Shown here piece by piece: positions 8,386 to 44,764 of a stretch of DNA of 64,000 nt. Made by a program: the position numbers and the translations under genes. The stretch is from a virus, in IMG/VR virus record IMGVR_UViG_3300044624_002978, positions 279,545 through 343,544 of that record; one strand, 5' to 3'. The notes below the pieces were generated by a model. The model was given only the letters and a program-made list of their open reading frames with translations. It was not told the origin of the DNA and searched no databases. The first letter of the stretch is position 1, and each line of letters begins with the position of its first letter.

Positions 8386-9207
8386 TTATCTAAGGTTGGT
8401 TAGCACCTTTGCTAATTCTTCATTTGATAGATTAAGATCCTTACCACTTACTGCTTTTGCTATACCTGATAATATACTACTAACAAATCCTCTGGCTGGT
8501 TCTGCCGAGAATCCAACCACACTATCACTAGGTAAACTTGATGAATCAGGAACCGGGGTGTTTGGGATGGAACCAAGTCTTCCACCAATTCCCCCAGCGC
8601 TCTTTATTAAATCATCTTCAAATGCAGGTGTTCTTGATGTTTTAAAATAATCAATGAATCCGAATATGTTTTTATCCGTTATCTTTCTAACATTAACACC
8701 AACTCTATCACCTTCTCCTGATTTCTGATCACTCGTATTACCTTCTATTGTAGTAAAAGTTTTCTTAGCAGGATCCACACTAATAACTATTCCTGTATGT
8801 CCAAGTCCTTTACCACCAGCTCTACTCATCATAAATATCTGTCCTGGTCTAAGAAGATTGATGTCTTTCCTTACTTGGTCTACAGTTATCTTTAAATCTG
8901 CTGGTGCTTTATCCCAGTGATACTTTACACCGCCGGTCTTAGGTAATGGATTGGTAGCTCCTAGTTTCTTAGAGAATTCATCAAACACATAATACACAAA
9001 TGCCATGCACCATGGTAAACCTTCTTTCAATCCAACACTGGCGAGATATTTCTTTATCTCCACACCTTTATTGCTTCCGCTAGGTTCTTCCTGTACATTT
9101 CTATTCTTAGCTAGTATATCGGTTAATGCATCACCAGCAGCTTCAGGGTTACTTAAAGGTATCTGTGCCTCTGCCAGAAATTCGGAGAATGATTTTAATT
9201 TTTCCAT
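8386..9207 (-). CDS. CHAP-type peptidoglycan hydrolase with N-terminal tag
   Basis: 273 residues. The start MEKLKSFSEFLAEA has the shared tag and an L-A-E/A site like a T4 prohead-protease site. The catalytic domain (about 44-190) has PWCMAF with the nucleophile Cys67, then RPGQIFMM and GHTGIV with His137, and EGNTSD with Glu155, the CHAP/NlpC-like amidase pattern. The C-terminal 80 residues are low complexity with a helix at the end. It would cut peptide bonds in the cell wall. Its late-type promoter and tag suggest it is packaged in or attached to the virion rather than acting as the free endolysin; this is inference. Confidence 0.8.
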   Translation of the reverse strand: MEKLKSFSEFLAEAQIPLSNPEAAGDALTDILAKNRNVQEEPSGSNKGVEIKKYLASVGLKEGLPWCMAFVYYVFDEFSKKLGATNPLPKTGGVKYHWDKAPADLKITVDQVRKDINLLRPGQIFMMSRAGGKGLGHTGIVISVDPAKKTFTTIEGNTSDQKSGEGDRVGVNVRKITDKNIFGFIDYFKTSRTPAFEDDLIKSAGGIGGRLGSIPNTPVPDSSSLPSDSVVGFSAEPARGFVSSILSGIAKAVSGKDLNLSNEELAKVLTNLR

Positions 9208-9223
9208 AATTTATTAGTATTCA

Positions 9224-9232
9224 CTATATATC
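9224..9232 (-). promoter_or_regulatory. Late-type motif GATATATAG for CHAP gene
   Basis: GATATATAG on the minus strand, 17 bases upstream of the start at 9207. Confidence 0.65.
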
Positions 9233-9251
9233 AAAAAAAATTGGGGTATTA

Positions 9252-9283
9252 TTTTTTTATCTGAGTTGGTCTACTTATATTTG
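9252..9283 (+). promoter_or_regulatory. Early promoter for 9308 operon
   Basis: T-run/ATCTGAG from 9252 and TATATTTG at 9276-9283. Confidence 0.85.
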
Positions 9284-9307
9284 CTTAGTAATTAAAAACA
9301 AACAATC

Positions 9308-9547
9308 ATGGCACAAAAAGAAACACACATACTAATAGCTACTGGAGGATCTCTCAATGATGAGGTAAGAGTGGAAATGATCGTTATTGATGAATCAAAT
9401 ATGGAAGAGGATGAATTTGATGACTTCGGAGAATATGCAGACTACCTAATAGATGACGCGGTAGGAGAATATGAACAAGGATTCTGTAAGGTTCTAGTCA
9501 TCAATGAATCTCAATTACCCAACTTGCTAAATGCTTTGGTGAGTTAG
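9308..9547 (+). CDS. Unidentified acidic early protein
   Basis: 79 residues, strongly acidic in the middle (NMEEDEFDDFGEYADYLIDD). No membrane segment. Could be a DNA mimic or a protein-binding factor, but there is no evidence beyond charge. Confidence 0.65.
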   Translation: MAQKETHILIATGGSLNDEVRVEMIVIDESNMEEDEFDDFGEYADYLIDDAVGEYEQGFCKVLVINESQLPNLLNALVS

Positions 9548-9584
9548 CAAAAATGCAAAAAGTAACCGATTAAAATTTTAATAT

Positions 9585-9812: not shown

Positions 9813-9830
9813 TCCAGACCTCATCATACA

Positions 9831-9867
9831 AAAAACCCCAGATTCTTTATGAGTCTGGGGTTTTTTT
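9831..9867. terminator. Bidirectional terminator between convergent genes
   Basis: AAAAACCCCAGA (9831-9842) pairs with TCTGGGG plus T-run (9854-9867), between the 9585 gene (+) and the SLT gene (-). Confidence 0.9.
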
Positions 9868-13252: not shown

Positions 13253-13263
13253 CCAATATCAAA

Positions 13264-22817: not shown

Positions 22818-23129
22818 ATGAAACATCTCCAACTATATGAATCTTTCCATCACGAGAAAGAGTTGGTCTTCAAGTCAAGACAAGGTAGGGTAATCACCGT
22901 GAACTTATTAGGTGGTCGTATAGAAGACATCGATAACCAAGCAGGAGTTAGATTCCCTTTCATGAAAGGACAGCAATACACAAGAACTATAGAGACATGG
23001 GCATGTAATAATGGATTCACTATCAACGGTGAAGACACTTGTCCTGAGAAGAAAGTATTCGGGATACGTACATCAGACATTCCACAAGGACATGAGCTAA
23101 GAAGACTTTTTCCAAATAAGTTTAGGTAA
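22818..23129 (+). CDS. Tagged late protein
   Basis: 103 residues, MKHLQLYESFHHEK with the shared tag and an L-Y-E/S site. The body is basic and beta-like (SRQGRVITVNLLGG). A terminator follows. Confidence 0.7.
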   Translation: MKHLQLYESFHHEKELVFKSRQGRVITVNLLGGRIEDIDNQAGVRFPFMKGQQYTRTIETWACNNGFTINGEDTCPEKKVFGIRTSDIPQGHELRRLFPNKFR

Positions 23130-29039: not shown

Positions 29040-29204
29040 ATGATATTAACATACACCCAATACATAACGGAGAAAGCCAAAAGAGACAGCAATCCATGCT
29101 GGCCTGGTTACACACAACTTGGCACCAAAATCAAGAACGGCAAGACCGTGCCCAATTGTGTTGATGTTGATGACAAGAAAACACAGAACCAAAAACAGAA
29201 ATAG
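29040..29204 (+). CDS. 54-residue phage peptide with PCWxGY...VPNC motif
   Basis: ATG 29040. MILTYTQYITEKA resembles a capsid-targeting tag with an I-T-E/K site. It is followed by NPCWPGYTQLGTKIKNGKT and VPNCV, a motif (PCWxGYxxxGxKxKxGxxVPNC) found at the ends of virion-associated proteins in many phages. The Cys pair may bind zinc or form a disulfide. Function unknown. Confidence 0.7.
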   Translation: MILTYTQYITEKAKRDSNPCWPGYTQLGTKIKNGKTVPNCVDVDDKKTQNQKQK

Positions 29205-29464: not shown

Positions 29465-30064
29465 ATGAAAAACCTAGCACCATATAATCTATTCGAAGAT
29501 GACAAGCCACCAGTTAAGAGTGAAAGAAAGCTTCTTGGATTTGCACTAAGTACTATTGCTAGCTATGATCAGGGTGATGCTATTTCATCATATCTTGTTG
29601 TTGGAAGCGCATACACATTTCAGGAATTTGCATTTCAAGTTCTAGAGGATCTACATGGGATGGAACCAGAGGACATCAGTGATGCAATAAAGGACATTGA
29701 AGATGTTGATGATGAGGTTTATAATACAGCTGAACCTTCTAGCTACGAATCAATGTTCTGGCATGGACTTGAACCAGTTTCAAATGAGGCATTCTATGAC
29801 TCAATAAGTTTGACAAATCCTGTAATGGCATCACAGCTGCTTAGAAAGTACTTCAGTAATGCTGATGTGATAATGTCAAGAGACCGAAATGGTAACAATA
29901 ATGACAACACTTACATAATCAAATCTATTAAAAATTCACCCGAGCTTCTATTTAGATATGAAAATGATGGTGCAAGATACAATGATATAATATCAAATCT
30001 TGGATTTACTGAGGATCAAATTAGATCACTCAAAAGTTATTCGCAAATTAAAAATCAATTATAA
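29465..30064 (+). CDS. Tagged late protein
   Basis: 199 residues, MKNLAPYNLFEDDK start. Acidic alpha/beta body, without recognised motif. Its stop overlaps the next start (TAATG). Confidence 0.65.
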   Translation: MKNLAPYNLFEDDKPPVKSERKLLGFALSTIASYDQGDAISSYLVVGSAYTFQEFAFQVLEDLHGMEPEDISDAIKDIEDVDDEVYNTAEPSSYESMFWHGLEPVSNEAFYDSISLTNPVMASQLLRKYFSNADVIMSRDRNGNNNDNTYIIKSIKNSPELLFRYENDGARYNDIISNLGFTEDQIRSLKSYSQIKNQL

Positions 30065-30711
30065 TGGATAAGATAAAGAGCTATTCAGAATTTAACTCTG
30101 AATTAAATGAGGCAGATCTTGGTATATTTAAAACCATGCCTGTTTTTGCTAGAGCAATAGCAAACCCATTCTCGCTAAGTATAGCACCACAGATCGTTAC
30201 GATGATGGATGGTGACATAAACGACGAAGCTTCAATAATGGAGCCTTATAAAAAGATCTTTCAAAAAGCATGCATCAAGTTTGGAGGGGGTAAACCAGGA
30301 AATGTTGGTAAAACATGTAACAAAGATCTCACACTACAAGCACTTGCTGAATTTTATTTCGATCCTGCTAAAGGTAAAATGGATCCTAAAGCTATATCTA
30401 AATGGCTGGATGAAACTACAAAAGATCACGATCCTTCGGCAGAAGGTGAATGGGAAGTTACTGCTGCTGATATGGATGAGATCGTTATGAAGTTTGTAGA
30501 TCTTCTTAAAAGAACAGGTGTTACACCAGGTGGTATTAAAAAGACAGGGACATATCTTCTAAATATTGGTCTTCCTATGATGAAGAGATTCTATAAGCCG
30601 GAGGACATAGAGAAAATGAAGATGATAACAAGCGGACAGTTAATAGATGCTGCTAAAGCTAAAGAACTTCTTGCTGGTGGAGCAAAAGGGGGAGAATTAT
30701 CTCTGGATTAA
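30064..30711 (+). CDS. Tagged late protein
   Basis: 215 residues, MDKIKSYSEFNSELNEA with the tag and an L-N-E/A site. The mature part is helical, with GAKGGELSLD end. Candidate internal or structural head protein. Confidence 0.7.
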   Translation: MDKIKSYSEFNSELNEADLGIFKTMPVFARAIANPFSLSIAPQIVTMMDGDINDEASIMEPYKKIFQKACIKFGGGKPGNVGKTCNKDLTLQALAEFYFDPAKGKMDPKAISKWLDETTKDHDPSAEGEWEVTAADMDEIVMKFVDLLKRTGVTPGGIKKTGTYLLNIGLPMMKRFYKPEDIEKMKMITSGQLIDAAKAKELLAGGAKGGELSLD

Positions 30712-30742: not shown

Positions 30743-31603
30743 ATGAACAATAAACACATTAAATTATTCGAAGCTTATGTCTCTGAAACTAGCGACATTA
30801 TAAATGAAGCTTATGATGATATGATGGCTAACCATGCTGATGGTGATTTTAATATCGATGAAGACACTATGACTTATGACTTATCAGAAGATGACGAGGA
30901 TATGGATTGGCTGGATGACGAAGAATTAGGAAGTGGAGAAAAAGCAGCACTTGCTAGGGATTTTCAAATTCTAACTAAACCACAATTAGCAGCACTTTAC
31001 CTAAGGGCATTAGGAAAAGCTCAGGAAAATGATCCAGGTAAATATTTGGTAATGGTTGATGGTATCGATCAGTTCGGTGAATATGATGATGACAGCAGAG
31101 CATTTAAAGTTAGTACTGCAGCTCTTGGTGATGCCATTGGACTTGATTCAATCAGAACAGTTGGACGTACAGTTAACAAATTTGTTAATCTAATTAATGG
31201 TACTGGTGAAACTTCTTCTGAGACAATCTACCCTAAATTACTTAGAGCATACGAATTTTTCCAAAATAAACCGGTTTCTCAAGTAGCTAATTTGGCATCT
31301 GAAGCAGTTCAGGATCCTACAGTTTCTACTAAACACAGAGAGGAAGCTATTGCAGCAGGACCTAGAGCAGCAGCTCAAAGAGCAGCTCAAAAGAAAATGC
31401 AATTGGAAGTTGGATCTAAAGTTTTTGCTCTTATTAATTCACTAAGAAGAAACGAAATCTTCAGAGACATCACTAAAGCTCATAGAGCGGCAGTTAATAA
31501 GATGGCAGCTGAAACTGGATTAACAGCAGAGAGAATTAATCTTGCTTATAGAACATTCTTAACAGATAAAGGAATTATGTCAGGTGCTAATTACGCTATG
31601 TAA
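30743..31603 (+). CDS. Tagged late protein, basic helical C terminus
   Basis: 286 residues, MNNKHIKLFEAYVSET, then IINEA (cleavage-type site near 22). A very acidic stretch (about 50-75) is followed by a helical, Ala/Arg/Lys-rich part (about 205-270), which would suit a DNA-contacting internal protein after removal of the N-terminal portion. Overlaps the end of the convergent gene by 13 bases. Confidence 0.7.
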   Translation: MNNKHIKLFEAYVSETSDIINEAYDDMMANHADGDFNIDEDTMTYDLSEDDEDMDWLDDEELGSGEKAALARDFQILTKPQLAALYLRALGKAQENDPGKYLVMVDGIDQFGEYDDDSRAFKVSTAALGDAIGLDSIRTVGRTVNKFVNLINGTGETSSETIYPKLLRAYEFFQNKPVSQVANLASEAVQDPTVSTKHREEAIAAGPRAAAQRAAQKKMQLEVGSKVFALINSLRRNEIFRDITKAHRAAVNKMAAETGLTAERINLAYRTFLTDKGIMSGANYAM

Positions 31604-32119: not shown

Positions 32120-33016
32120 TTAAAATATGTCGTGTTCCTTTATGGATAATCTTCTTGCCTGTATTTTTAATTTTCTCATTGCCTTCTGGTATTTGACTCT
32201 TATATTCTCACCCGACATGGAATAAATTTTACCCATATCAGGGAATGAATGTGGATCACCATCATATTCACCAACACCATGTCTTCTAAAAACTATATCC
32301 TTCTCTGTTGGTGTTAACTTGTCAACGAGGTCATTTAGAATTCTATTAAAATCGTTCTGTAAAACAGAGTCATCCGAGCTTTTTTCTCCTGATTCTATTA
32401 TATCCAATAACGTCATTGAATCTGATTCTGATGATATTGGATTACTAAAAGAACTTGGTCTATAGTCCGCAACAGTAGCTGAAAATAGAGCATCTCTTCT
32501 TAATGACTTGTATTTTTCTTTCTTCTCTTTTATCGAAGCAAAAGCTTCATCGAAGGTTGCATCTCTACCCTCCCGCATAGATATTTCATTAGAAGCTTCC
32601 CTCATTGCTCTTAAAACACCAATCTGATTCATTGGTAATCTAACTAATTTTTTAGATTCGCTCATGTGTGCTAGCATTTCTTTTCTGATATGCCATACAG
32701 CAAAAGAGATGAATTTGAATCCTCTAGTGGGATCGAATTTTCCGGAGGCTTCCACTAAACCTATGTTTCCTGCCGCAACTAGATCTGCATAATCTTCTGG
32801 ACTGCTCGAATACATCTTAGCAACGGATAGCACAAATCTTAAATTAGCCTTAACCAATGTATCCCTTGCTTCCTGATCTCCTTCAGCAGCTAGATAAGCA
32901 ATCTCAGCTTCTTTATCTGGACTCATCATCTTGTGTTGCTCAACTTCGTTGAAATAATCACCGGATGACCTGGTTAGTCTCGGTGTGAATTTTTCTGAAA
33001 TTTTAAATTGTCTCAT
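32120..33016 (-). CDS. Sigma-70-family RNA polymerase sigma factor
   Basis: 298 residues. Region 2 spans about 54-114 (NLRFVLSVAKMY, DLVAAGNIGLVEASGKFD, GFKFISFAVWHIRKEM), region 3 about 128-200, and region 4 about 235-290 (LTPTEKDIVFRRHGVG and a helix-turn-helix ending QKAMRKLK). A short region 1.2 precedes (from about 18). It would redirect host RNA polymerase. The gene has an early-type promoter, so it is the obvious candidate for reading the GATATATAG promoters of the late genes. The N terminus MRQFKISEKF weakly resembles the tag, probably by chance. Other late-activation routes are not excluded. Confidence 0.9.
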   Translation of the reverse strand: MRQFKISEKFTPRLTRSSGDYFNEVEQHKMMSPDKEAEIAYLAAEGDQEARDTLVKANLRFVLSVAKMYSSSPEDYADLVAAGNIGLVEASGKFDPTRGFKFISFAVWHIRKEMLAHMSESKKLVRLPMNQIGVLRAMREASNEISMREGRDATFDEAFASIKEKKEKYKSLRRDALFSATVADYRPSSFSNPISSESDSMTLLDIIESGEKSSDDSVLQNDFNRILNDLVDKLTPTEKDIVFRRHGVGEYDGDPHSFPDMGKIYSMSGENIRVKYQKAMRKLKIQARRLSIKEHDIF

Positions 33017-33144: not shown

Positions 33145-33729
33145 ATGAAATACATCACCACATACGAATCAATGTCTTATACACAAAGAAATCAATCAAT
33201 AAGTGAGGGTTTATCATATCACATAGATAAAAATATACCACTTATGGAAAGTGTATATAGAATAGAATCTGAATCTTGGTTATCTATAATTAATGAGGCT
33301 AGGATTCTATGGGAGAACAACGTCATTGATCTATGTGAGGATGATCTATTCCTAATCAGTACAGATGCTGGCAGTAAAGGTGTATATGAAAACGAAACAG
33401 TATTGCTAGATGTACCATTCTATGTTGATCATGAATTATACGAGGCAGAATATAGGGGCAGAGATGTTGATCTGAATAAACCATTCAGAACTCCTGGAGG
33501 TCCTAGAAAATTCGCAGTGTATACAAAGAATGAATCAGGAAATGTAATAAAGCTTGGATTTGGTCAGCCTGGTATGAGGGTTAATAATAACGATCCAGCT
33601 AAATCAAGATCATTTCAAAAAAGAATGAGGTGTGATAATCCTGGACCTAGATGGAAAGCTAGATGGTGGTCATGTAATGTTGCAAGGTATAGAAAATTAC
33701 TTGGTATTAAATCTAGCAGACCATGGTAA
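33145..33729 (+). CDS. Tagged late protein with conserved Cys-rich basic domain
   Basis: 194 residues, MKYITTYESM start; a possible I-N-E/A site lies near residue 51. The C-terminal half (PGGPRKFAVYTKN, SFGQPGMR-like GFGQPGMR, RMRCDNPGPRWKARWWSC, YRKLLG) is a domain found in many myophages, usually in or near head genes; function not known. Confidence 0.75.
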   Translation: MKYITTYESMSYTQRNQSISEGLSYHIDKNIPLMESVYRIESESWLSIINEARILWENNVIDLCEDDLFLISTDAGSKGVYENETVLLDVPFYVDHELYEAEYRGRDVDLNKPFRTPGGPRKFAVYTKNESGNVIKLGFGQPGMRVNNNDPAKSRSFQKRMRCDNPGPRWKARWWSCNVARYRKLLGIKSSRPW

Positions 33730-34023: not shown

Positions 34024-34320
34024 ATGGATAATATTAAGGGTTATGAATCATTCAGATCCAGTGAATCTGATATAAACGAGAGCTTCTGGAATAGTATTTT
34101 TGGTAAGCCAACAATAAAGGCTGCAACGAGAGATGCTCTAAAAACACAGGAATTTAGTGTTAGAGGAGAGGGTGAAAGATCCGAGGACAATTATATAGTT
34201 TTCAACGGAAAGAAGTTTTACCCAGATCAAATACAATATGACGATTATCACTCAACAAAGGAACTACCAAGAGTGGAAGGTAACTTACTTATAATTGCAA
34301 ATCCCGCTTGGAGTCTCTAA
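34024..34320 (+). CDS. Tagged late protein
   Basis: 98 residues from ATG 34024: MDNIKGYESF with a following I-N-E/S site. Small beta-like domain after it. ATG 33985 in the same frame overlaps the previous gene and lacks the tag at its start. Confidence 0.7.
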   Translation: MDNIKGYESFRSSESDINESFWNSIFGKPTIKAATRDALKTQEFSVRGEGERSEDNYIVFNGKKFYPDQIQYDDYHSTKELPRVEGNLLIIANPAWSL

Positions 34321-34351: not shown

Positions 34352-34555
34352 ATGGAACACTTAAAGGAATACAACGAATATCTTCTTGAAAAGAAAGGAA
34401 TCAGCCCAGCAATATACAAAGAACTTGAAATGTTTTTTGGATCTGTTAAAAGCCCTTCATATAAGGATGCTAAATTATTTATAGCTAAAACTAATGATGG
34501 TTGGGAACTTTCGGAAGAGGATTATAAAGAGGCTAAATCTAAATTTAAAGGATAA
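34352..34555 (+). CDS. Tagged late protein
   Basis: 67 residues, MEHLKEYNEYLLEKK with the tag and an L-L-E/K site. Short helical body, basic. Confidence 0.7.
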   Translation: MEHLKEYNEYLLEKKGISPAIYKELEMFFGSVKSPSYKDAKLFIAKTNDGWELSEEDYKEAKSKFKG

Positions 34556-34558: not shown

Positions 34559-35140
34559 ATGAAATTTGTAAAATTATACGAAGATTTCGATCTGGATGAT
34601 TTTATGAAAAATCCTGGTACATATTTTCATTCCGACGATTCAAAGGAAGTCGAGGATGGCGATTATATAACTTCATATAGAGGTATAGGTCAGGTTCTTG
34701 GTAAGGAGGGTGATTTTTTAAGGATACAGCTTATGGATGGTCCTAGAAATGTGGTAAGGGTTCCTTATGATATGGTAAGAAAAATAAAAAAATCAGAAGC
34801 TGAGGAGGCTGCTAATTCACTACCAAAAACGAAGGATGAATTGAAGCTTATGAATAGCGAACTTTCTAAATATACTGAAACTGTAGTAACCACTGACGAT
34901 AATGATAATGAGGTACTATCTGGAAATATAACATCATCCATAGAATATCTTGAAGCAATACTGATTGATGTCATTTCATTATCGAAGAAAGACGCATATA
35001 CAACATTCTATCCAGAGTATTCGCTTCTGGTATCAAATGTTGCAGAACTAGCACAGCTTATACTACAAACTACAAACGACGAAACAAAACAAAATTCGGT
35101 TGATGTTATTCTGGATAAATTCTATGAAATCTCCAATTAA
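34559..35140 (+). CDS. Tagged late protein with SH3-like segment
   Basis: 193 residues, MKFVKLYEDF start. Residues about 35-75 (VEDGDYITSYRGIGQVLGKEGDFLRIQLMDG) look like an SH3-type barrel; the rest is helical. Function unknown. Confidence 0.65.
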   Translation: MKFVKLYEDFDLDDFMKNPGTYFHSDDSKEVEDGDYITSYRGIGQVLGKEGDFLRIQLMDGPRNVVRVPYDMVRKIKKSEAEEAANSLPKTKDELKLMNSELSKYTETVVTTDDNDNEVLSGNITSSIEYLEAILIDVISLSKKDAYTTFYPEYSLLVSNVAELAQLILQTTNDETKQNSVDVILDKFYEISN

Positions 35141-35584: not shown

Positions 35585-36979
35585 TTATGCTAATTCGATG
35601 TCCCATACAAGATCTTCAAATATAAAATGTGAATCCTCGAATGAATTACATGTTGATTCCCAAACTGCTTTACCTGTATTGTACATCTGAGTAAAGAAAT
35701 CTGTAGTTGCTTTAGCAGCTTCGTCATATGCGCTACTAAGTGCTTTACCTGCATCTGATAGCATTTTCTTACCTCCATTGTAAGCATTGGTAGTAAATTT
35801 AACTGATGCATCCCAACCAGCTTTAATAGTTTTGGCGAAATCTGCTGCTCCGTCCTTAACATTCTTACCAATCCAAGCCATTCCTCCAGCAATCACTGCT
35901 GCTCCGTCCTTAGCTCCCTGAACTATTGTTTTTAATGCTGGTGACAAGAAAGTAGCTACTGATTTAAAAGCACTAACTGCTAGACCAGTAAGAACATATC
36001 CCAATGTTTTAGCTCCTGCTTTAATACCATCGAAAAAGGCTGTTGCCCCTTGTACTGTTGATTTAAGTGCCTTAGCTGAATCCTGAGCAAATTTGGTGAA
36101 GAATGCATTAGCTTTATCTGAAACCTTTTTATAGATGGCTGCACCTTTTATAGAAGCCCAATTCGCGATAGAAGCTAATCCTTGAATAGCTGCACCTGCC
36201 GTGTACATAACACCATCTGCAAGGAATTTAGAAGCAGATGCTACAGCAGATAAAATAGCCATTGCACCATCCAAAGCCATAACAACAGCTCCAGTTACAG
36301 TATAAACTATAGCCTTACCAACTGCAGTTGCTGCATTTTTAATAAATGCTAAGTTAGCATCCAATAGTGTTGTACCCTCTAGTGCTTTTACTTGTGTGGC
36401 TGCATCTTTTTTAGGTATACATATAACTAATGTTTTGCTACCGTATTTAACAACCGTTATAGATTGATAGATTTTAAGAAGAATTGGGTTAATCCCAGCT
36501 TTTTTAGCATCTTCAGCAGTTTTTACATTGTATCTTTTCACTATATCAGCATCTTGCTTAGCAGTATCCTTTATTGATTTAGATAATTCTAATAATTTTC
36601 TAAGCGTTTGAACTCCAACAATACCATCAACGGTAAGTTTGTTAGTTTTCTGGAATTCCTTAACCTTAGCTTCAGTAGCTGAACCGAATGCTCCATCAGC
36701 CTCTTTAGCGCTCATTCCTAGGTCCTTTTGTAATTCAGTAACCCTCTTACTCTTCTCGCCTTTTTTTAGAGGTTTGAATTCACTTGGTGTTGGTCCAGCC
36801 TCATCAACAGGCTTTTCTTCGGTTGGTGCTAATAGGTCTGCAATTTTTTCCGCATCAGCAGCGGGAGCAAATGGATCGAATAATAAAGGATCCTCTGCTT
36901 TTACTTCTGATTCGTTAATAAATCCATATGATTCATATAGGTGCTCGAAATCAGAAAATGATAATAATTTGTTTTCCAT
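35585..36979 (-). CDS. Tagged peptidoglycan-binding virion protein
   Basis: 464 residues. MENKLLSFSDFEHLYESYGFINES carries the tag and an I-N-E/S site (letters split: tag 1-11, site about 20-23). A PG_binding_1 domain lies at about 70-130 (LKKGEKSKRVTELQKDLG, DGAFGSATEAKVKEFQ, DGIVGVQTLRKLL). The following 300 residues are Ala/Gly/Lys-rich helices with hydrophobic stretches. It would bind cell-wall glycan. Tag plus late motif suggests a head or particle protein acting at entry. Confidence 0.75.
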   Translation of the reverse strand: MENKLLSFSDFEHLYESYGFINESEVKAEDPLLFDPFAPAADAEKIADLLAPTEEKPVDEAGPTPSEFKPLKKGEKSKRVTELQKDLGMSAKEADGAFGSATEAKVKEFQKTNKLTVDGIVGVQTLRKLLELSKSIKDTAKQDADIVKRYNVKTAEDAKKAGINPILLKIYQSITVVKYGSKTLVICIPKKDAATQVKALEGTTLLDANLAFIKNAATAVGKAIVYTVTGAVVMALDGAMAILSAVASASKFLADGVMYTAGAAIQGLASIANWASIKGAAIYKKVSDKANAFFTKFAQDSAKALKSTVQGATAFFDGIKAGAKTLGYVLTGLAVSAFKSVATFLSPALKTIVQGAKDGAAVIAGGMAWIGKNVKDGAADFAKTIKAGWDASVKFTTNAYNGGKKMLSDAGKALSSAYDEAAKATTDFFTQMYNTGKAVWESTCNSFEDSHFIFEDLVWDIELA

Positions 36980-37743: not shown

Positions 37744-38241
37744 TTATCTTAGCGTAAGTAGATATCTAGTTTGATCAACCAATGCTACAATTTCATCTAA
37801 TATATTAAATATTTCGCTATCTGAATTCTCGTCTAATAATGCTCTACAATCAATAGCATAGCATTTATGCATAACATCCATAAATTTTTTAAGATCACAT
37901 TTTTCAGGATCATTAAAATTCATTATTTTAATGCTAAGATTATCGTCAGATAAAACTGGCTTACCATACTTACCCATTATAACTTCAGCAAGACTGTCGC
38001 TGAGATCAAGGAATTTTCCAAATAACTTATCTAATGCCTTGTGCTGTCCGTAAGTATATGCTTGCCAATGTAGCAATTTTATCTGGGCAGTATTTTGCAT
38101 TATCATCTTAAATATATGGCCATATTTATTTGCTTCCTCAGATGAAACGTTATCTTCTGGCTTCTTATTAGCAACCATATCCATATTTGCTGGATTCTTA
38201 ATCACGTCTCCAAATGCGCTAAGGTTTAAAATTCCGTCCAT
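37744..38241 (-). CDS. Dps/ferritin-like DUF5856-type phage protein
   Basis: 165 residues. The helix IKLLHWQAYTYGQHKALDKLFGKFLDLSDSLAE (start about 53) has the LxHWQ..YxxHKAL pattern of DUF5856, a Dps-like four-helix family common in phages. No residues prove iron oxidation. Late-type motif just upstream. Confidence 0.7.
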   Translation of the reverse strand: MDGILNLSAFGDVIKNPANMDMVANKKPEDNVSSEEANKYGHIFKMIMQNTAQIKLLHWQAYTYGQHKALDKLFGKFLDLSDSLAEVIMGKYGKPVLSDDNLSIKIMNFNDPEKCDLKKFMDVMHKCYAIDCRALLDENSDSEIFNILDEIVALVDQTRYLLTLR

Positions 38242-38260
38242 TATTTAATGTATATTTTAA

Positions 38261-38269
38261 CTATATATC
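38261..38269 (-). promoter_or_regulatory. Late-type motif GATATATAG for 38241 gene
   Basis: Minus strand, 19 bases upstream of the start; overlaps the end of the 38674 gene. Confidence 0.6.
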
Positions 38270-38674
38270 ACCAATTGGATTTATTTTATTTACTATTGAT
38301 GTTGTTGATAAATTGGGGATTTTGGTAAAAAATTCAACATTGCATAAATTTGATCCGGTTATCTTTCTCCCAATATATTCATCGCCTATTATTATCAGAT
38401 CCACATTTTTTTCGACCAGCTTATCGCACATTTCAATTTCACTAGAAAAAACGACGACCTCATCAACATATCGTATCGATTCAAGTATAATCTTTCTGTT
38501 ATTTTGGTTGTTTATAGGTCTATCCTTACCCTTCAGAATTGATACTCTTTCATCGGAATCTATACCAACAATAAGTAGATCCCCCCTGGATCTTGCATAT
38601 TTTAGAATCTCTATATGCCCGGGATGTATTATATCGAAGCATCCGTTGACCCATATTATTTTCTTTTTCTCCAT
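38261..38674 (-). CDS. HldE/RfaE C-terminal-type nucleotidyltransferase
   Basis: 137 residues. NGCFDIIHPGHIEIL (10-24) is the HxGH nucleotide-binding motif; GDLLIVGIDSDERVSILKG and RPINNQNNRKIILESI follow the adenylyltransferase domain of HldE. Such enzymes join a nucleotide to a sugar or alcohol phosphate. A role in surface sugar or nucleotide modification is inferred. The kinase half of HldE is absent. Confidence 0.75.
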   Translation of the reverse strand: MEKKKIIWVNGCFDIIHPGHIEILKYARSRGDLLIVGIDSDERVSILKGKDRPINNQNNRKIILESIRYVDEVVVFSSEIEMCDKLVEKNVDLIIIGDEYIGRKITGSNLCNVEFFTKIPNLSTTSIVNKINPIGDI

Positions 38675-38708
38675 GCAGGAAACTTTTTATTGTTATAGAT
38701 CTTATATA

Positions 38709-38717
38709 GATATATTA
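38709..38717 (+). promoter_or_regulatory. Possible late-type motif GATATATTA
   Basis: 8 bases before the 38725 start, next to TTATATA. Confidence 0.4.
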
Positions 38718-38724
38718 TTTCACT

Positions 38725-39177
38725 ATGGGATGGCGTAATTTTTCAACGCATAAAGAGATTGAGCTAAAAGAATATTTAGAGGAGTGGTTATTCGAAAATC
38801 CGGATCATCTAATTTACATTGGCTGTGATTCTCATAATGATATGGCTAATACAAATTTTGCAACTGTCATAGTACTTCATCATTATTCCAAAGGCGGACA
38901 CGTTTTATATAATAAGGAGATAATACCAAGGGTCACTTCAGCACACGAAAGACTATGGAAAGAGGTTGAGTATAGTGTAAATGCTGCTAAAAAATTAATA
39001 GAGTGGGGAATACAATCTCCTGAATACATAGACATTGATATGAATCCAGACCCTAAATATCAGTCAAATCAAATGCTTAGAGCTGCGGTTGGATTGGTTG
39101 AATCTGAGGGAATGAAAGCAAGATATAAAACACTTTCCCCATGGTCAATATCAATAGCTGATGTTATCTGTAGATAA
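38725..39177 (+). CDS. RNase H-like protein (DUF458/YkuK type)
   Basis: 150 residues. YIGCDSHND near 31 provides the first acidic residue, followed by FATVIVLHHYSKGGHVLYN strands; IDIDMNPDPKYQSNQMLRAAVGLV and PWSISIADVICR end the domain, matching YkuK-type proteins. Possible nuclease of RNA or hybrid; substrate unknown. Confidence 0.7.
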   Translation: MGWRNFSTHKEIELKEYLEEWLFENPDHLIYIGCDSHNDMANTNFATVIVLHHYSKGGHVLYNKEIIPRVTSAHERLWKEVEYSVNAAKKLIEWGIQSPEYIDIDMNPDPKYQSNQMLRAAVGLVESEGMKARYKTLSPWSISIADVICR

Positions 39178-39185
39178 ATACCATT

Positions 39186-39653
39186 ATGGAGGTAGAAAAG
39201 GGCATAGTAACATTTAGTTCACAAATAGATAGCGAATATACGGTTTTCATAGTATATGAGGAAAGCGAAAAATATCCAGCATTCAGAGAAATTTTCGAGC
39301 TACTTGATGATAGTGTTGGATTCCTAGATTTCAAGGGTAAGCTTATTTTCATAGATGGCGAGTGTAAAGATCTAACATTGGACCATATCATAGCAGTACA
39401 AGCACATGAGATATGTCATTTTATACTCCAGCATAATAATGGTGATTATAGTGAGGATAGAATGGAAATAGAAGCTGATATGGCATCAATAGAAATGCTT
39501 AATTGTATGGAAATGTATATTCCGGCAGATCTTATAAAGGAGAGGCTGCTTGAGAGGTATGGAATATTATACTCAACTGATAGCTTAGATTTTATATTAT
39601 CTCCAGATAAAAGACTCATATTCAATGAATATCTAAAAAAAATTAAAAAATAG
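39186..39653 (+). CDS. HExxH zinc metallopeptidase-like protein
   Basis: 155 residues. AHEICHFIL (about 79-87) gives HExxH, and EIEADMASIEML about 20 residues later supplies a gluzincin-type third ligand. Probably a soluble cytoplasmic protease; substrate unknown. Directly upstream of tRNA cluster 2. Confidence 0.7.
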   Translation: MEVEKGIVTFSSQIDSEYTVFIVYEESEKYPAFREIFELLDDSVGFLDFKGKLIFIDGECKDLTLDHIIAVQAHEICHFILQHNNGDYSEDRMEIEADMASIEMLNCMEMYIPADLIKERLLERYGILYSTDSLDFILSPDKRLIFNEYLKKIKK

Positions 39654-39662
39654 GATAAATAA

Positions 39663-39694
39663 TTTTTTTATATCGTGAAATATTATTATCTTTA
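39663..39694 (+). promoter_or_regulatory. Early promoter for tRNA cluster 2
   Basis: T-run/ATATCG from 39663 and TATCTTTA at 39687-39694. Confidence 0.8.
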
Positions 39695-39726
39695 CGTCAT
39701 ACAAATAAGACACAATGAAAACTAAA

Positions 39727-39800
39727 GGCCCCGTAGCTCAGCTGGATAGAGCAATTCACTTCTAATGAATAGGTCACACGTTCGAATCGTGTCGGGGTCA
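39727..39800 (+). tRNA. tRNA-Arg(TCT)
   Basis: Cloverleaf complete; anticodon loop CTTCTAA between ATTCA and TGAAT. Confidence 0.95.
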
Positions 39801-39808
39801 CAAAAAAT

Positions 39809-39890
39809 GCTCCTTTGGTGGAATTGGTAGACACGCTAGACTTAGGATCTAGTGCCGAGAGGTGTGAGAGTTCGAGTCTCTCAGGGAGTA
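39809..39890 (+). tRNA. tRNA-Leu(TAG), copy 1
   Basis: Long variable arm; loop CTTAGGA between CTAGA and TCTAG. Confidence 0.95.
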
Positions 39891-39897
39891 CAACGGC

Positions 39898-39942
39898 TTT
39901 GATGGAGAGCCAAAAGTAGGTGATGAACCTACGTCCATCAAA
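39898..39942 (+). ncRNA. Spacer hairpin between tRNAs
   Basis: TTTGATGGA pairs with TCCATCAAA; an inner GTAGGTGATGAACCTAC hairpin makes a two-stem element of 45 bases. Confidence 0.6.
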
Positions 39943-39944
39943 AA

Positions 39945-40018
39945 GGTCTTGTAGCTCAGTTGGTTAGAGCACCGCACTCATAATGCGTAGGTCCCTGGTT
40001 CGAGTCCAGGCTGGACCA
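39945..40018 (+). tRNA. tRNA-Met(CAT), elongator type
   Basis: Loop CTCATAA; D-arm GCTC/GAGC of elongator type; acceptor GGTCTTG/CTGGACC. Confidence 0.85.
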
Positions 40019-40020
40019 CT

Positions 40021-40050
40021 AAATCCCGCCCAATAAGGGTGGGATTTTTT
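40021..40050 (+). terminator. Terminator of tRNA cluster 2
   Basis: AAATCCCGCC pairs with GGGTGGGATTT (one bulge), then T-run. Confidence 0.85.
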
Positions 40051-40068
40051 ATTAAAAATAATTTTAAT

Positions 40069-40494
40069 ATGATATCAATTTATTTAGACGATTTTAGAAC
40101 GCCCACCGAACATCCTAATAACGGGGAATGGATTATAGTAAGAAATTATGAGGAGTTCGTTAATAAGATATTAGAGGTTGGACTAGATAACATAGATATT
40201 CTCTCGCTGGACCATGACTTGGATCATTCAGCAACATCCCACTATTTTGAATATGTTAAAAAAAATTACTCAATAGACTATTCACAAATACTAGAACCCA
40301 CAGGAATGGACGTAGCTAAATGGCTTATCTTGCATTCTAGAGCAACTGGTCACAAAATACCCAAATGTTATATACACTCTCATAATCCAATAGGATCCGG
40401 AAATATGTTGGGTCAAATAAATCTATATTTAAAGGAAAAGAAATTACCGGAAAGCTGCGAGATTAAAAGATGGAAGTATATAAATAAGGAATAG
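40069..40494 (+). CDS. cREC-type receiver-like protein (cyclic-phosphate processing)
   Basis: 141 residues from ATG 40069; a longer frame would start inside the terminator. ISIYLDDFRTP (2-12), SLDHDLD (48-54), TGMDVAKWL and IHSHNPIGSGNM match the cREC family, a receiver-like fold proposed from comparative genomics to act on RNA 2',3'-cyclic phosphates in repair systems. Its place right after a tRNA cluster fits repair of cleaved tRNAs. No ligase or kinase is seen in this window. Confidence 0.75.
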   Translation: MISIYLDDFRTPTEHPNNGEWIIVRNYEEFVNKILEVGLDNIDILSLDHDLDHSATSHYFEYVKKNYSIDYSQILEPTGMDVAKWLILHSRATGHKIPKCYIHSHNPIGSGNMLGQINLYLKEKKLPESCEIKRWKYINKE

Positions 40495-40515
40495 CAAAAC
40501 CCGATTCCTTGATTT

Positions 40516-40527
40516 GAATATATATAA
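40516..40527 (+). promoter_or_regulatory. Late-type motif GAATATATATAA
   Basis: 13 bases upstream of the adhesin start. Confidence 0.55.
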
Positions 40528-40539
40528 AAAAAGGAATCC

Positions 40540-42372
40540 ATGTCAAATCCAGTAAAATATTCAATAACACCACTACCATATACTATAGGGAGAAATAACA
40601 TGAACCTAGGGGTTGGCGTAACGGGATATGGATCAACACCGGAAACTAATTTTTGGCAAGGCTATGACGTTACACCATCGGGATATGTCATCTATATAAA
40701 TAAGGCAGAACAAGGACCTTCGATATATTCACCAGAATCTGATTTGGATCTCGTTGGATTAATCTCAATTAATGCATTTGGTGGATCATCGATAACAACA
40801 GTATCTGATGCATTATTATGGTTATATGATCAGGACGATACAATATGTATCAATATGGAATACCCCTCGATACCAACTGAAGGCCTTAATATGCTTCTGG
40901 ATGCAGGATTTACTGCATCATATCCAAGAACAGGTAATGAGTGGTATGACCTCTCCAGAAATGGTAATTCAGGAAATCTAATGGGATCGACATTCAGTAA
41001 TTTACAAAAAGGTAATATTGTATTTAATGGGGCAAGTGATTATGTAGATATAAACAATGGTTCACCCGTATTATCAAATAACGAATACACCAAGATAATC
41101 TGGTTTTATGTTAATAGCTTTTCTAATGCAAATAATCTAATAAGTGGAGGATCTGGATCTGGTCAGGGACAGCATGCTTTTTGGCTGGGCGCAACAAATA
41201 AATTACAATCTGGACATAATGGTTCCTGGAATATAGTTGAATCATCAACCACTCTTAACCTTAATACTTGGTATTGTGGTGCAGTAACCTTTAGTTCGGC
41301 AGCAGGATGGAAACTATATCTGAATGGTGTATTGGAAGATAGTTCAGCTGATAATATTACATTTTCTGGTGACGGTAACGTTTTTATAGGTTCATATGAT
41401 ACAGGTTCAAATTTATTTAATGGATCCATATCCAATGCTATTATATACGACAGAACATTAAGTGATTCCGAAATAACATCAATATATAATTCATTCTTGC
41501 CGAGATTCATAATACCGACGACTAGCACGACTACGACTAGCACCACAAGCACCACAACTACGACGACTATAGCTCCTACGACTACGACTACGACTACAAC
41601 TAGCACCACGACTACGACGACTATAGCCTCAACAACGACAACAACGACAACTATAGCTCCAACAACGACAACAACGACAACTATAGCTCCCGGTATAATT
41701 ACCAGTAGTTTATTCATGAAGCTTGATGCTAGTAATTATACATCAGGTACATGGACGGATGAGACTGGTAACGGAAATAATGCGACTATTAATGGGGCGA
41801 CTTGGTCGTCAACGGACGGTGGTATTTTTGATTTAAATGGTACTAGTAACACAATTAGTATTCCACACACTTCAAATCTTAGTTTAAATACCACGACACA
41901 AAGAACGATTCAGGTTTGGGTTAAATTCGATGTGTTACCTGCACTGAATACACAGATACCGGTCTTTGGTAAATTATCGGGATCGTTTGGGTTTGATGGA
42001 TACTGGGGGGGTTTATTTTCTAATGGTGGTAAAGTTAGGTCAGTAACAAATGGAACAGGTGTTCAAAGAATTGTTGATTCTACTTTAACCGTCACAACAA
42101 ATACTTGGTACTTATTTACTTTTATATCACAAATTACAGCAACAGCAAATACAACTAAAGTTTATATTAATACTACGGAATATATTACAACGGCACACGG
42201 GACAGATGGGTATTCGGAATCGAATCCTCTATACCTAGGATATATTGGGGCGGGTATTGGATCAACATATCTAAATGGTAAAATCGGTGCATCATATTTC
42301 TATACTAGAGGGTTGAGCGCTTCGGAAATTTCAACTAATTATAATTCAACAAAATCAAAATATGGTTTATAA
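40540..42372 (+). CDS. Two-LamG-domain adhesin with Thr-rich linker
   Basis: 610 residues without signal peptide. An N-terminal attachment-like region (1-115) is followed by LamG domain 1 (about 118-322), a Thr/Ser linker with TTTTIAPTTTT repeats (about 324-384) and LamG domain 2 (about 390-608). LamG folds bind glycans. As a late gene without signal peptide it is best explained as a tail fibre or head decoration. The linker DNA (41509-41694) is a run of ACGACTACGACT-like repeats prone to length change. Confidence 0.75.
   Translation: MSNPVKYSITPLPYTIGRNNMNLGVGVTGYGSTPETNFWQGYDVTPSGYVIYINKAEQGPSIYSPESDLDLVGLISINAFGGSSITTVSDALLWLYDQDDTICINMEYPSIPTEGLNMLLDAGFTASYPRTGNEWYDLSRNGNSGNLMGSTFSNLQKGNIVFNGASDYVDINNGSPVLSNNEYTKIIWFYVNSFSNANNLISGGSGSGQGQHAFWLGATNKLQSGHNGSWNIVESSTTLNLNTWYCGAVTFSSAAGWKLYLNGVLEDSSADNITFSGDGNVFIGSYDTGSNLFNGSISNAIIYDRTLSDSEITSIYNSFLPRFIIPTTSTTTTSTTSTTTTTTIAPTTTTTTTTSTTTTTTIASTTTTTTTIAPTTTTTTTIAPGIITSSLFMKLDASNYTSGTWTDETGNGNNATINGATWSSTDGGIFDLNGTSNTISIPHTSNLSLNTTTQRTIQVWVKFDVLPALNTQIPVFGKLSGSFGFDGYWGGLFSNGGKVRSVTNGTGVQRIVDSTLTVTTNTWYLFTFISQITATANTTKVYINTTEYITTAHGTDGYSESNPLYLGYIGAGIGSTYLNGKIGASYFYTRGLSASEISTNYNSTKSKYGL
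41509..41694 (+). repeat. Low-complexity repeats coding the Thr linker
   Basis: Imperfect repeats of ACGACTACA and CAACGACAACA with ATAGCTCC blocks; the opposite strand reads as a false Val-rich frame. Confidence 0.8.
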
Positions 42373-42390
42373 TAAATAATACGTAAATTA

Positions 42391-42422
42391 TTTTTTTTAT
42401 CCGATTACATATATTACATTTG
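42391..42422 (+). promoter_or_regulatory. Early-type promoter for a leaderless message
   Basis: T-run/ATCCGAT from 42391 and TACATTTG at 42415-42422; ATG at 42427. Confidence 0.8.
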
Positions 42423-42426
42423 ATAT

Positions 42427-43023
42427 ATGAAAAAAATGATTCTATTCCTATTATTAACTCTAGTTCAAAATGTTCTATATGCTCAGACCAATTTAGAAGG
42501 ATTGGTCTTAAAAGAACTTAATGCTTATAGAAAATTAAATAAGCTAAAACCGGTAAAATATTCAGATACCATAAATAAAGCTGCTTATCACCACACCCAA
42601 TGGATGTCCAGAGTTAGCTTTAATAAAATGAAGCAAATAATGGAGGTTGATGATGGATCAGAGCAAATGGATGCACACACTGAAACAATCGACGTCCCGA
42701 ACTTTAAGGAATTAAAAACCCCCGAGGATAGAGGAAAGGAATTCGGTATAATTAAGGAAAGTACCAATTATACTTTAGGTGAGATCTGTAATATGGCAAA
42801 TGCAAACGGCGGAAACTATTTCACTGCTTCTCAAAAATCCGATGATATGCTCGCTAAGGATATAATAACAAAATTTTCAAAATCACCAGGCCACGATGCG
42901 GTAATGAGATTGGACCTTGATAATTGTTATGTCGGTATTTGTGTAATTGTTAAGAGTGTTATTATCGGTGGACAGGAGAATAAAATTGCATATACCACAA
43001 TATATTTTATTGAAAAATACTAA
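42427..43023 (+). CDS. Secreted CAP-domain protein (SCP/PR1 type)
   Basis: 198 residues. Signal peptide MKKMILFLLLTLVQNVLYAQ; LVLKELNAYRKLNKLKPVKYSD and AAYHHTQWM begin the CAP fold, and SPGHDAVM (about 158-165) is its typical motif. Exported; role unknown. Second gene of this type with an almost identical leaderless promoter. Confidence 0.8.
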   Translation: MKKMILFLLLTLVQNVLYAQTNLEGLVLKELNAYRKLNKLKPVKYSDTINKAAYHHTQWMSRVSFNKMKQIMEVDDGSEQMDAHTETIDVPNFKELKTPEDRGKEFGIIKESTNYTLGEICNMANANGGNYFTASQKSDDMLAKDIITKFSKSPGHDAVMRLDLDNCYVGICVIVKSVIIGGQENKIAYTTIYFIEKY

Positions 43024-43033
43024 TATTGCTATT

Positions 43034-43043
43034 GGATATATAG
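43034..43043 (+). promoter_or_regulatory. Late-type motif GGATATATAG
   Basis: 21 bases upstream of the 43065 gene. Confidence 0.65.
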
Positions 43044-43064
43044 TTAAAATAAATCCAAATAAGA

Positions 43065-44369
43065 ATGTCTAAGAAATTTGTTTTCGAATCATTAAGTGAT
43101 TTCATAAATTATAAGCTTTTAACAGAGACTCCAAACGGAACTCTAAATGAGGCTGACTCTAAATCCTCCCCTTGGGATTTTAAATTTGATAGCGGTGAAT
43201 TTAAAAAAGATGACGTAAGTCCAGATCAGATAAAAAAATTAGAGGTAGATTTTAAAAATAGGATAATTCCAGTTTTAAATAATCAGAACTACATCGGTCA
43301 GAAACTTAATGTAACAATATCTTCAGCATCAAGTAAGGTTCCTGTCAATCCATCAGGATCTGTTGCAAAAGCATTAAAGGCTGCAGGTTATTCAACAGAT
43401 AATGACGGCCTATGTAAAGCTAGAGGTAATACTGTTGTTGAGTTGATAAAAGACCTAATGTACAATACATTCGGTGAAGGTATGGACAGGAAGGAATTTC
43501 TTAAGTCCGCCGAAAAGAAAATGGAATTCATAAATAAGCCAATGCCTAATATTGGACCAGATTATGATAAATCTAAAGGTGATAATCCGGATGATCAGAA
43601 ATTTAAGGACAATCAATTTATTTCTGCGACACTCGTAGCAAGTGGTGAACCAATTGGTGATGATATAAAGATATCATGTAAAATGGATAAAAGTTTCTCT
43701 GGTAGAAAGGCTGATGCTAGCAACGGATATGCAGGTTATGATAAAACAGTTTACCTTACAGCTAAGGCTGGCCAGAAAATGGAGATATTCTTTGATCCAT
43801 TAGTTATACCAGATGCTATATTATTTTCATACTCAGGAAAGGAGATTAAACTTTCACCATTTATGGGTGCATTCGGTGCTAAATATATTAGAGGTGAATA
43901 TAGCAAGGAAAAAGAGGATGCGTTAAATGCAGATGCTAAAGCGGGTAAAAATGCTCCTGGTAAAAGAGAGAACATTGGAGGAAAAAATTATTTAGTTATT
44001 GATTATAAGGATTACCTTAATAATGTTATCAATAAAGGTGGTTCATTGGTTAAAGCAATAGAGACTAAACTATCTTCGCTTGGTCTAAAACCTATCAAAG
44101 AACTTTGTCCGGAATTTTTTGATTCAGCAGGAAAAATAGAGGTCTATAGAAATAAGGATCTTAGTGAAATTAAAATAGATGACACCAATAAAGTTTGGGA
44201 ATGGACATACGATCTGCTTAAATCTGGTGCATTAAAAGAATCTCCAAAGGCTGACATAAAGAGTTTAAGTATAGAGGTTACTAAAAATGCAGTAAGAGAC
44301 GCAGTTAAATTAGTTGCTTTCTCACCGGTAGCTGGAACCCAATTTAAAATAAGAACAGTTTGTAAATAA
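43065..44369 (+). CDS. Large tagged late protein
   Basis: 434 residues. MSKKFVFESLSDF start, sites L-T-E/T and L-N-E/A within the first 32 residues, then a soluble alpha/beta body without recognised motif. A large cargo for the head if the tag works as proposed. Stop overlaps the next start. Confidence 0.65.
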   Translation: MSKKFVFESLSDFINYKLLTETPNGTLNEADSKSSPWDFKFDSGEFKKDDVSPDQIKKLEVDFKNRIIPVLNNQNYIGQKLNVTISSASSKVPVNPSGSVAKALKAAGYSTDNDGLCKARGNTVVELIKDLMYNTFGEGMDRKEFLKSAEKKMEFINKPMPNIGPDYDKSKGDNPDDQKFKDNQFISATLVASGEPIGDDIKISCKMDKSFSGRKADASNGYAGYDKTVYLTAKAGQKMEIFFDPLVIPDAILFSYSGKEIKLSPFMGAFGAKYIRGEYSKEKEDALNADAKAGKNAPGKRENIGGKNYLVIDYKDYLNNVINKGGSLVKAIETKLSSLGLKPIKELCPEFFDSAGKIEVYRNKDLSEIKIDDTNKVWEWTYDLLKSGALKESPKADIKSLSIEVTKNAVRDAVKLVAFSPVAGTQFKIRTVCK

Positions 44370-44764
44370 TGAGCAATAATATAAAAACTTTCGAAAGTTT
44401 CTCGTATCCAATTAACGAGGAGGCAGCTTTACCAAAGATGCCGGATTTTCTTAAAAAAGCTGGAGCTAAAGAAGACCACTTCCATGGAGGAGGACCTGTT
44501 AGGATGAACCCACCAAATAATTCTTGGATAATCGAGGTAAAATCGCCCAAAGGTATATTTAAGAAAGAGCATACATGGGGATTAGTATTTTTTCCTAACG
44601 GTACATTCACAACCGGAATAACCCCAGAGGATTCAAACGGTCCATTCAATAGCGGTGGTAAATGGAAGGCTAGTCCTTCGGATTCATTTACTATGCTGAA
44701 TAAAAAAATACAGGGAGTATCTATGACATTCAATAGCTTATTTTCTCCTACCACATATATGTAA
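44369..44764 (+). CDS. Tagged late protein
   Basis: 131 residues, MSNNIKTFESFSYPINEE with the tag and an I-N-E/E site. Beta-rich body. Function unknown. Confidence 0.7.
   Translation: MSNNIKTFESFSYPINEEAALPKMPDFLKKAGAKEDHFHGGGPVRMNPPNNSWIIEVKSPKGIFKKEHTWGLVFFPNGTFTTGITPEDSNGPFNSGGKWKASPSDSFTMLNKKIQGVSMTFNSLFSPTTYM

Follow-up and report, generated by a model that had tools for sequence, protein, structure and literature searches.

A T4-like N-terminal tag on otherwise unrelated proteins of a huge phage and its possible relation to the repeats of a protease-fused scaffold

Why do proteins that seem to have nothing else in common begin with the same short peptide? The window analyzed here, a stretch of 64,000 nucleotides (bases 279545-343544 of the 343,544-base virus record IMGVR_UViG_3300044624_002978), encodes a series of proteins with an N-terminal tag of the type MKxIKxFExF. 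An earlier note had listed 16 such starts, likened them to the capsid targeting sequence (CTS) of phage T4, and proposed that the phage packages a large and varied set of proteins by this one tag. That interpretation is partly supported by the sequences compared here. The tag is probably a CTS of the T4 type by function, although greatly expanded, because it has the T4 spacing and occurs together with a protease and a head of the kinds found in T4. This suggests that one general system may pack proteins and deliver them into bacteria.

The tag is genuine and clusters at the starts of proteins. Among the called genes of its own record, for which all gene counts refer to 144 kb sampled out of 343.5 kb, a fixed motif is present at 19 of 190 N-termini vs. 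12 of 1898 interior windows. The relatives LR756501, LR756502, and LR745206 were sampled as stretches of 41-92 kb out of 635-735 kb; in LR756501, the motif occurs at 18 of 80 N-termini vs. 13 of 1697 interior windows. The same concentration is present in loci that were picked via the protease and not via the tag (63/515 N-termini vs. 183/15137 interior windows). A scan of the whole record, along the lines proposed in the earlier note, recovered 21 matches to a DNA pattern of the tag vs. three to the reversed pattern; a second spacing of the pattern gave no signal in the whole record (four matches vs. five reversed). A profile of 10 columns, built on 38 seed matches from this and three further phages and applied with a cut-off of 5.46 (the 99th percentile of interior windows), assigns the tag to 29 of the 190 sampled genes. 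Because the profile is seeded partly by the phage itself, and the scores of several of the 16 listed starts, which served as seeds, are therefore partly circular, the unseeded tests (fixed motif, DNA pattern, and protease-chosen loci) weigh more.

Translation of the 16 listed open reading frames (ORFs) reproduced the quoted starts. Thirteen of them pass the profile, whereas those at 29040, 29211, and 43065 fail. The start at 29040 (MILTYTQYITEK) is missing the IK part of the tag and contains the T4-like core YTQYITE; the start at 29211 (MKYITPFDADTN) was rejected as a tag. A further tag, MKTIKTFESF at 984, had been absent from the list. The respective genes of the window are:

984..1601, plus strand: tagged protein MKTIKTFESF, not in the earlier list; internal start of the ORF 954-1601; profile score 18.0
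8386..9207, minus strand: tagged CHAP-domain protein, MEKLKSFSEFLAE followed by A; profile score 17.9; PF05257 with 41.5 bits
9866..10693, minus strand: tagged SLT-domain protein, MGKIKSFNEYINE followed by N; profile score 14.6; PF01464 with 24.5 bits
19693..20010, plus strand: tagged protein MKHLKIFEGY; profile score 19.9; residues 7-36 without (I/L/V)xE
22818..23129, plus strand: tagged protein MKHLQLYESF; profile score 17.0; residues 7-36 without (I/L/V)xE; outside the gene calls used here
29040..29204, plus strand: ORF of 54 residues with a possible T4-like core, MILTYTQYITE followed by K; fails the profile (-9.7)
29465..30064, plus strand: weakly tagged protein, MKNLAPYNLFE followed by D; profile score 9.5
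30064..30711, plus strand: tagged protein, MDKIKSYSEFNSELNE followed by A; profile score 16.2
30743..31603, plus strand: tagged protein, MNNKHIKLFEAYVSETSDIINE followed by A; profile score 21.3
33145..33729, plus strand: tagged protein MKYITTYESM; profile score 14.9; phrog_7595
34024..34320, plus strand: tagged protein, MDNIKGYESFRSSESDINE followed by S; profile score 16.9
34352..34555, plus strand: tagged protein, MEHLKEYNEYLLE followed by K; profile score 19.3
34559..35140, plus strand: tagged protein MKFVKLYEDF; profile score 15.0; residues 7-36 without (I/L/V)xE
35585..36979, minus strand: tagged protein with a peptidoglycan-binding domain, MENKLLSFSDFEHLYESYGFINE followed by S; profile score 11.2; PF01471 with 50.6 bits
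43065..44369, plus strand: at best a variant tag, MSKKFVFESLSDFINYKLLTE; fails the profile (2.4)
44369..44764, plus strand: tagged protein, MSNNIKTFESFSYPINE followed by E; profile score 20.2

That these proteins are otherwise unrelated was borne out: with the first 20 residues cut, the 16 listed proteins and the protein at 984 gave no BLASTP pair with E<0.01. The protein at 984 had no match in a Pfam search. The tag of the protein at 33145 is kept in all four homologs, which stem from other contigs and share 29-30% identity. In the protein at 35585-36979, a long tail rich in Ala and Gly gave weak PHROG matches of the tape-measure type; this protein may be ejected and act like a channel or pore.

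The statement of the earlier note that most tags are followed by (I/L)xE holds in a weaker form. Of the 16 proteins, 13 have a site of the type (I/L/V)xE within residues 7-36, but such sites are only moderately above background. In the own record, they were found in 17 of 29 tagged vs. 52 of 145 untagged proteins with the first version of the test (p=0.02), in 12 vs. 16 of the same sets with a stricter motif (p=2.7e-4), and in 15 vs. 31 with a shifted window (p=1.3e-3). Pooling four phages with the shifted window gave 27/64 tagged vs. 69/276 untagged proteins (p=5.6e-3). In the tags of the own record, the E often lies farther downstream than residue 13, as it does in T4 IPI.

The head genes that a CTS would serve are encoded in the same record. 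Locus L002 (bases 38000-57999 of the record) contains matches to Portal_T4 (233.4 bits), Gp23 (139.8 bits), and S77 (32 bits, and 34.1 bits in another search), all within 20 kb, so that the gp21-type protease sought by the earlier note is present and the genome is not one that lacks a prohead protease. The capsid protein starts with MKLINEQEIYDTW...YHSLNESAGAYN. Its LNESAGAY is present in 10 of the 12 relatives read (NE in all 12) and is plausibly a propeptide cleavage site comparable to FLTEA of T4 gp23. The three genes after the capsid gene start with MKNLPSFEEY, MTLKFKEWNELNEA, and MLNFKDF, and such starts are kept in close relatives.

The S77 domain forms the start of a 656-residue protein that continues with 13 tandem repeats of 14 residues, such as NISYSEYLAENVDN (YSEYLAEN type), and matches phrog_207 with 129 bits. 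The consensus of the repeat is (N/S/G)-I-x-Y-S-E-Y-(L/I/V)-A-E-N-(L/V)-D-K, with values of 0.99 for E and of 0.91 and 0.92 for the two Y. Repeats of this type are present also in LR745206, LR756502, LR756501, and LR756504, and in a degraded form in LR756500. Twelve loci of tag contigs yielded eight protease ORFs that are complete, and all eight have the repeats; among the relatives found by protease search, at least three chained repeats are present in 62 of 80, and in 61 of 64 where the ORF has at least 450 residues. Each repeat bears the spacing of the T4 CTS together with a possible cleavage site. An AlphaFold2 model of the protease-scaffold, in which the repeats appear as low-confidence long helices (mean pLDDT, the predicted local distance difference test, 57.9), was not used as evidence. 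Just upstream of the protease (L002:10795-13386) lies an 863-residue reading with hydrophobic Gly/Ala-rich stretches, which is conserved in relatives and has no Pfam match. In LR756508 (L390), two S77 pieces about 1 kb apart share one 576-residue frame, and the insert between them looks intein- or homing-endonuclease-like.

Tag, repeat, and T4 sequence are linked by a common spacing, aromatic-x-x-aromatic-aliphatic-x-E, which the scaffold repeat shares with the T4 CTS. When a profile built only from the repeats was scored at all positions of the relatives' proteins with the scaffolds removed, N-termini made up 10 of the top 20 positions (1.4 expected) and 19 of the top 50 (3.4 expected); 12 column-shuffled profiles placed 0-5 N-termini in the top 20 and 1-8 in the top 50. 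After removal of related proteins (360 of 600 left), N-termini accounted for 12 of the top 20 (1.6 expected), and most of these matches start at residues 3-7. In a test of individual genomes, in which a strict 14-column profile of the repeat was replaced by a seven-residue BLOSUM-weighted core, the effect is present in two of the five genomes, with 7/20 vs. 2.0 in the own record and 8/20 vs. 1.4 in LR756501.

Phages with this tag form a sizeable set. In IMG/VR, the DNA pattern of the tag is present in at least 120 stretches vs. three for the reversed pattern. Decoding of 80 of these loci yielded 92 matches, all of which open frames of at least 39 residues, typically with MKHIKLFEEFVNE. A stricter form of the tag, counted 53 times in 39 of the fetched loci, did not match any of 84,980 genomes of bacteria and archaea. 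With one mismatch allowed, the pattern matches in 28 of 35 records tested, and the reversed control in none of them. In T4, it matches IPII, IPIII, and one spurious site; Lak-B5, PTm1, MA9V-1, MaF61, phiM12, phiKZ, and LR756501 have no match to it. LR756501 is rich in tags of a slightly different form, which the one-mismatch pattern misses. S77 is present in 16 of 23 tag-bearing IMG/VR contigs (15 above the cut-off, with frames of 577-819 residues), a count that does not represent 23 independent cases because some of the contigs are near-duplicates (L169 and L170 encode the same protein). Some of the contigs are fragments. Among 13 control contigs, which were taken by an arbitrary 14-mer, S77 occurs in three (frames of 219-252 residues) and tags in none.

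The tagged proteins are diverse in function. The claim that wall hydrolases carry the tag was confirmed for the CHAP protein at 8386, the SLT protein at 9866, and the peptidoglycan-binding protein at 35585, and a second SLT protein (L041:2558) can be added. The own record further encodes a tagged adenylate kinase (L040:14976), and LR756501 a tagged glutamyl-tRNA synthetase (GluRS; L044:35128), a methyltransferase (L044:39452), and a RimK-like ATP-grasp protein (L031:30549). With the tag removed, 143 tagged representatives fall into 102 BLAST families. Pfam and PHROGs searches of the 100 longest revealed Acb1 (5), 2'-5' RNA ligase-like (4), ATP-grasp (4), ADP-ribosyltransferase (2), GNAT (2), NUDIX (1), and other proteins on viral contigs; the majority carry no functional assignment. 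Alignments to solved structures begin at residue 24 in the case of adenylate kinase (enzyme residue 2) and at residues 26-29 in the case of GluRS (enzyme residues 1-4), which leaves about 22 and 24-25 extra residues, respectively. Since the alignments begin near residue 1 of the enzymes, the tag regions are extensions ahead of the canonical starts.

The Acb1-like proteins are candidate cargo directed against the cyclic-oligonucleotide-based anti-phage signaling system (putative anti-CBASS proteins). Three of four such proteins score above the Pfam cut-off of 27 (28.5, 28.3, and 29.6) and one below (L058; 21.9), and both HxT motifs are present in all four. Of the 123 records in which an Acb1-like match occurs, the analysis covered eight. 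Tags are present on the homologs of LR745206, LR756502, and four IMG/VR loci; those of LR756508, LR756504, LR756511, Molly_5, NiceHouse, and Delphidian are apparently untagged. No match to S77 was obtained in NiceHouse or Delphidian; in LR756508 and LR756511, S77 is present and the repeats are absent from the ORFs read. Elsewhere, the protein at L042:8574 has two homologs without the tag, and the protein at L002:9972 has no tag among its nine homologs, most of which are truncated readings.

From these sequences, we infer that the tagged proteins are packaged, dock on the scaffold, are cut after E, and are injected. During head assembly, the core of the tag (aromatic-x-x-aromatic-aliphatic-x-E) would dock on the protease-fused scaffold, whose 14-residue repeats closely match it in sequence (YSEYLAEN). 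The S77 protease would then cut after E in the tags, in the scaffold repeats, and in the propeptide of the capsid protein, and the cut would release the cargo inside the head, from where it would enter the next host along with the DNA. The predicted cargo comprises wall hydrolases, enzymes of nucleotide metabolism and translation, ADP-ribosyltransferases, Acb1-like phosphoesterases, and many uncharacterized proteins. In its broadest form, for which we see an even chance, this account concerns a large set of huge phages, whose hosts are probably Bacteroidota. In these phages, a tag that imitates the repeat would recruit at least 100 protein families, the virion would deliver ready-made enzymes as infection begins, and the tag would be a module that genes can acquire or shed.

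The proposal that the tag imitates the scaffold repeat and docks thereby could about equally well be right or wrong. Its main alternative, at least for part of the likeness, is a shared protease preference: tag and repeat would resemble each other merely because both are substrates of one protease, and both indeed end in aliphatic-x-E, in line with the cleavage logic of T4 (PMC9026906). We consider this doubtful, since with LAE alone none of the top 20 positions is an N-terminus (1.6 expected) whereas with the full seven-residue core 12 of 20 are, and since the aromatic pair matches residues that, according to the same source, serve targeting in T4. It is also conceivable, if unlikely, that the tag directs proteins to the core of the prohead, where they act as parts of the assembly that are digested or expelled, most of them never being delivered into a host. 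The three genes behind the capsid gene fit such a role, as their tag-like starts (MKNLPSFEEY, MTLKFKEWNELNE, and MLNFKDF) are conserved in close relatives and their charged, coiled-coil-like products resemble core proteins, but CHAP and SLT proteins, adenylate kinase, GluRS, ADP-ribosyltransferases, and Acb1-like phosphoesterases are implausible as scaffold. Adenylate kinase, GluRS, and the methyltransferase are enzymes typical of an infected cell rather than of a virion, as would be expected if the tag sorted or docked proteins not to the head but to another target (for example a membrane complex or a compartment for replication). Yet the tag fits the spacing of the T4 CTS and the scaffold repeat and is accompanied by fused S77 proteases, which renders such a target quite improbable.

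A cause at the level of nucleotides, either an A-rich initiation leader in hosts with few Shine-Dalgarno sequences or a recently copied 5' end, has the smallest chance of being correct and must be regarded as very improbable. The starts are rich in AAA codons, and K is present at position 2 in 177 of 189 tags (K/R at position 5 in 188, a position fixed by selection of the tags). Conservation, however, extends to residue 13 in 101 ORFs chosen with only residues 1-7 fixed, which have F/Y/W at position 10 in 84 cases, an aliphatic residue at position 11 in 73, and E at position 13 in 59. The codons at F7, F10, I4, I11, and E13 match the background of the same genes (E13: GAA 0.79 vs. 0.82), although those at H3, L6, and E9 deviate; the roughly background codon choice at most of the conserved positions indicates that selection acts on the peptide. 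A Shine-Dalgarno filter left only five of the 101 ORFs and was dropped.

Several results weigh against a delivery system that depends on docking to the scaffold repeat and on cleavage after the tag. The enrichment of (I/L/V)xE in tagged proteins is only moderate, and it is not significant in any of three relatives taken singly (LR756501, 6/18 vs. 21/60; LR756502, 4/10 vs. 7/37; LR745206, 2/7 vs. 10/34). Neither half of the repeat core (YSEY alone or LAE alone) is enriched at N-termini. The per-genome test showed no effect in LR745206 (0), LR756502 (3), and LR756504 (1), the strict 14-column profile of the own repeats gave no clear enrichment (4/20 vs. 2.7), and an initial run on the relatives, from which not all scaffolds had been removed, placed 2 N-termini in the top 20. 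By eye, T4 gp22 is without such a repeat. Seven of the 23 tag contigs gave no S77 match, most of these seven being shorter than 125 kb (one has 344 kb), and LR756504 is an exception in that it has the repeats and an Acb1-like protein that looks untagged.

The closest known parallel is T4 itself, whose IPI begins with MKTFKEF and whose IPII and IPIII begin with MKTYQEFIAEA. As PMC9026906 describes it, residues 4 and 7 of the T4 CTS serve targeting and residues 8 and 10 processing, its removal frees the protein from the core, and its recognition is put down to an "affinity to the core". PMC12373910 reports that T4 IP1-3 are injected, inhibit type IV restriction enzymes, and have only the leader in common. 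Like the CTS of IPI, IPII, and IPIII, the tag is N-terminal, 10-20 residues long, and present on otherwise dissimilar proteins; it shares the order aromatic-x-x-aromatic-aliphatic-x-E in the form of F7, F10, an aliphatic residue 11, and E13, and it likewise occurs in a genome with a gp21-type S77 protease and a gp23/gp20-type head. Unlike T4, with three internal proteins and at least 10 reported in its relatives (PMC12373910), the phage has the tag on 29 of 190 sampled genes, the tag is three residues longer (MKHIKLFEEFINE vs. MKTYQEFIAE), and the scaffold is fused to the protease and built of tag-like repeats. T4 gp67, considered as a holder of the YSEYLAEN-type repeat, was dismissed after none was seen by eye.

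Other systems share single traits. In phage P1, an N-terminal stretch of DarB, which acts in defense evasion, sends this protein into the head and can do the same for a reporter, but there is no separate scaffold, according to the consulted part of PMC9024508. The giant phages SPN3US and phiKZ have inner head proteins with N-terminal propeptides that are cut by the prohead protease; according to PMC5694885, however, these propeptides mostly exceed 100 residues and have no single common short tag, and in a stretch of phiKZ the tag is present at 0 of 39 N-termini. A fusion of S77 to a scaffold is known from T4-like phages, where it is annotated in PTm1 as "prohead core scaffolding protein and protease", but YSEYLAEN repeats were not seen by eye in the scaffolds of PTm1, MA9V-1, and MaF61. 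Two proteins of PTm1 start with M(R/K)KLYxxISEN, and its scaffold repeats are of a different type, (F/Y)TxxLSE; the Chryseobacterium phage MA9V-1, which is in culture, has starts of the form MKxFxxFINEA, for example MKNFFSFINEA and MKTFTCFINEA. Tag and scaffold possibly co-vary in PTm1 and MA9V-1, the PTm1 case consisting of two proteins only.

No paper in the literature searched, which includes few subscription journals, contains any of the strings MKHIKLFEEF, MKHIKLFEQF, MKHIKLYEEF, and MKTYQEFIAE, and a search for the system in words found nothing there beyond T4, P1, and SPN3US. CTS tags are already known from T4 and P1; the present case adds a new scale, new cargo, and a connection with the repeats of the scaffold. 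The match to the repeat offers a concrete, testable answer to the question of how a CTS is recognized. If the tag loads proteins into the head as proposed, it would constitute a second modular system of this kind in phages, a tag readable from sequence would tell which uncharacterized genes have products that are carried by the virion and are the first to act in the host, and the predicted cargo would include candidate injected anti-defense enzymes.

Three features of the window lie outside the tagged set. Among the tagged genes, a minus-strand protein at 32120-33016 looks sigma-factor-like by eye. ARAGORN predicts 33 tRNA genes between 24503 and 55931, mostly in the region 39727-55931. Several long proteins at 56179-63031 have signal-peptide-like leaders ending in YAQ or FSQ, which by eye resemble those of secreted proteins of Bacteroidota.

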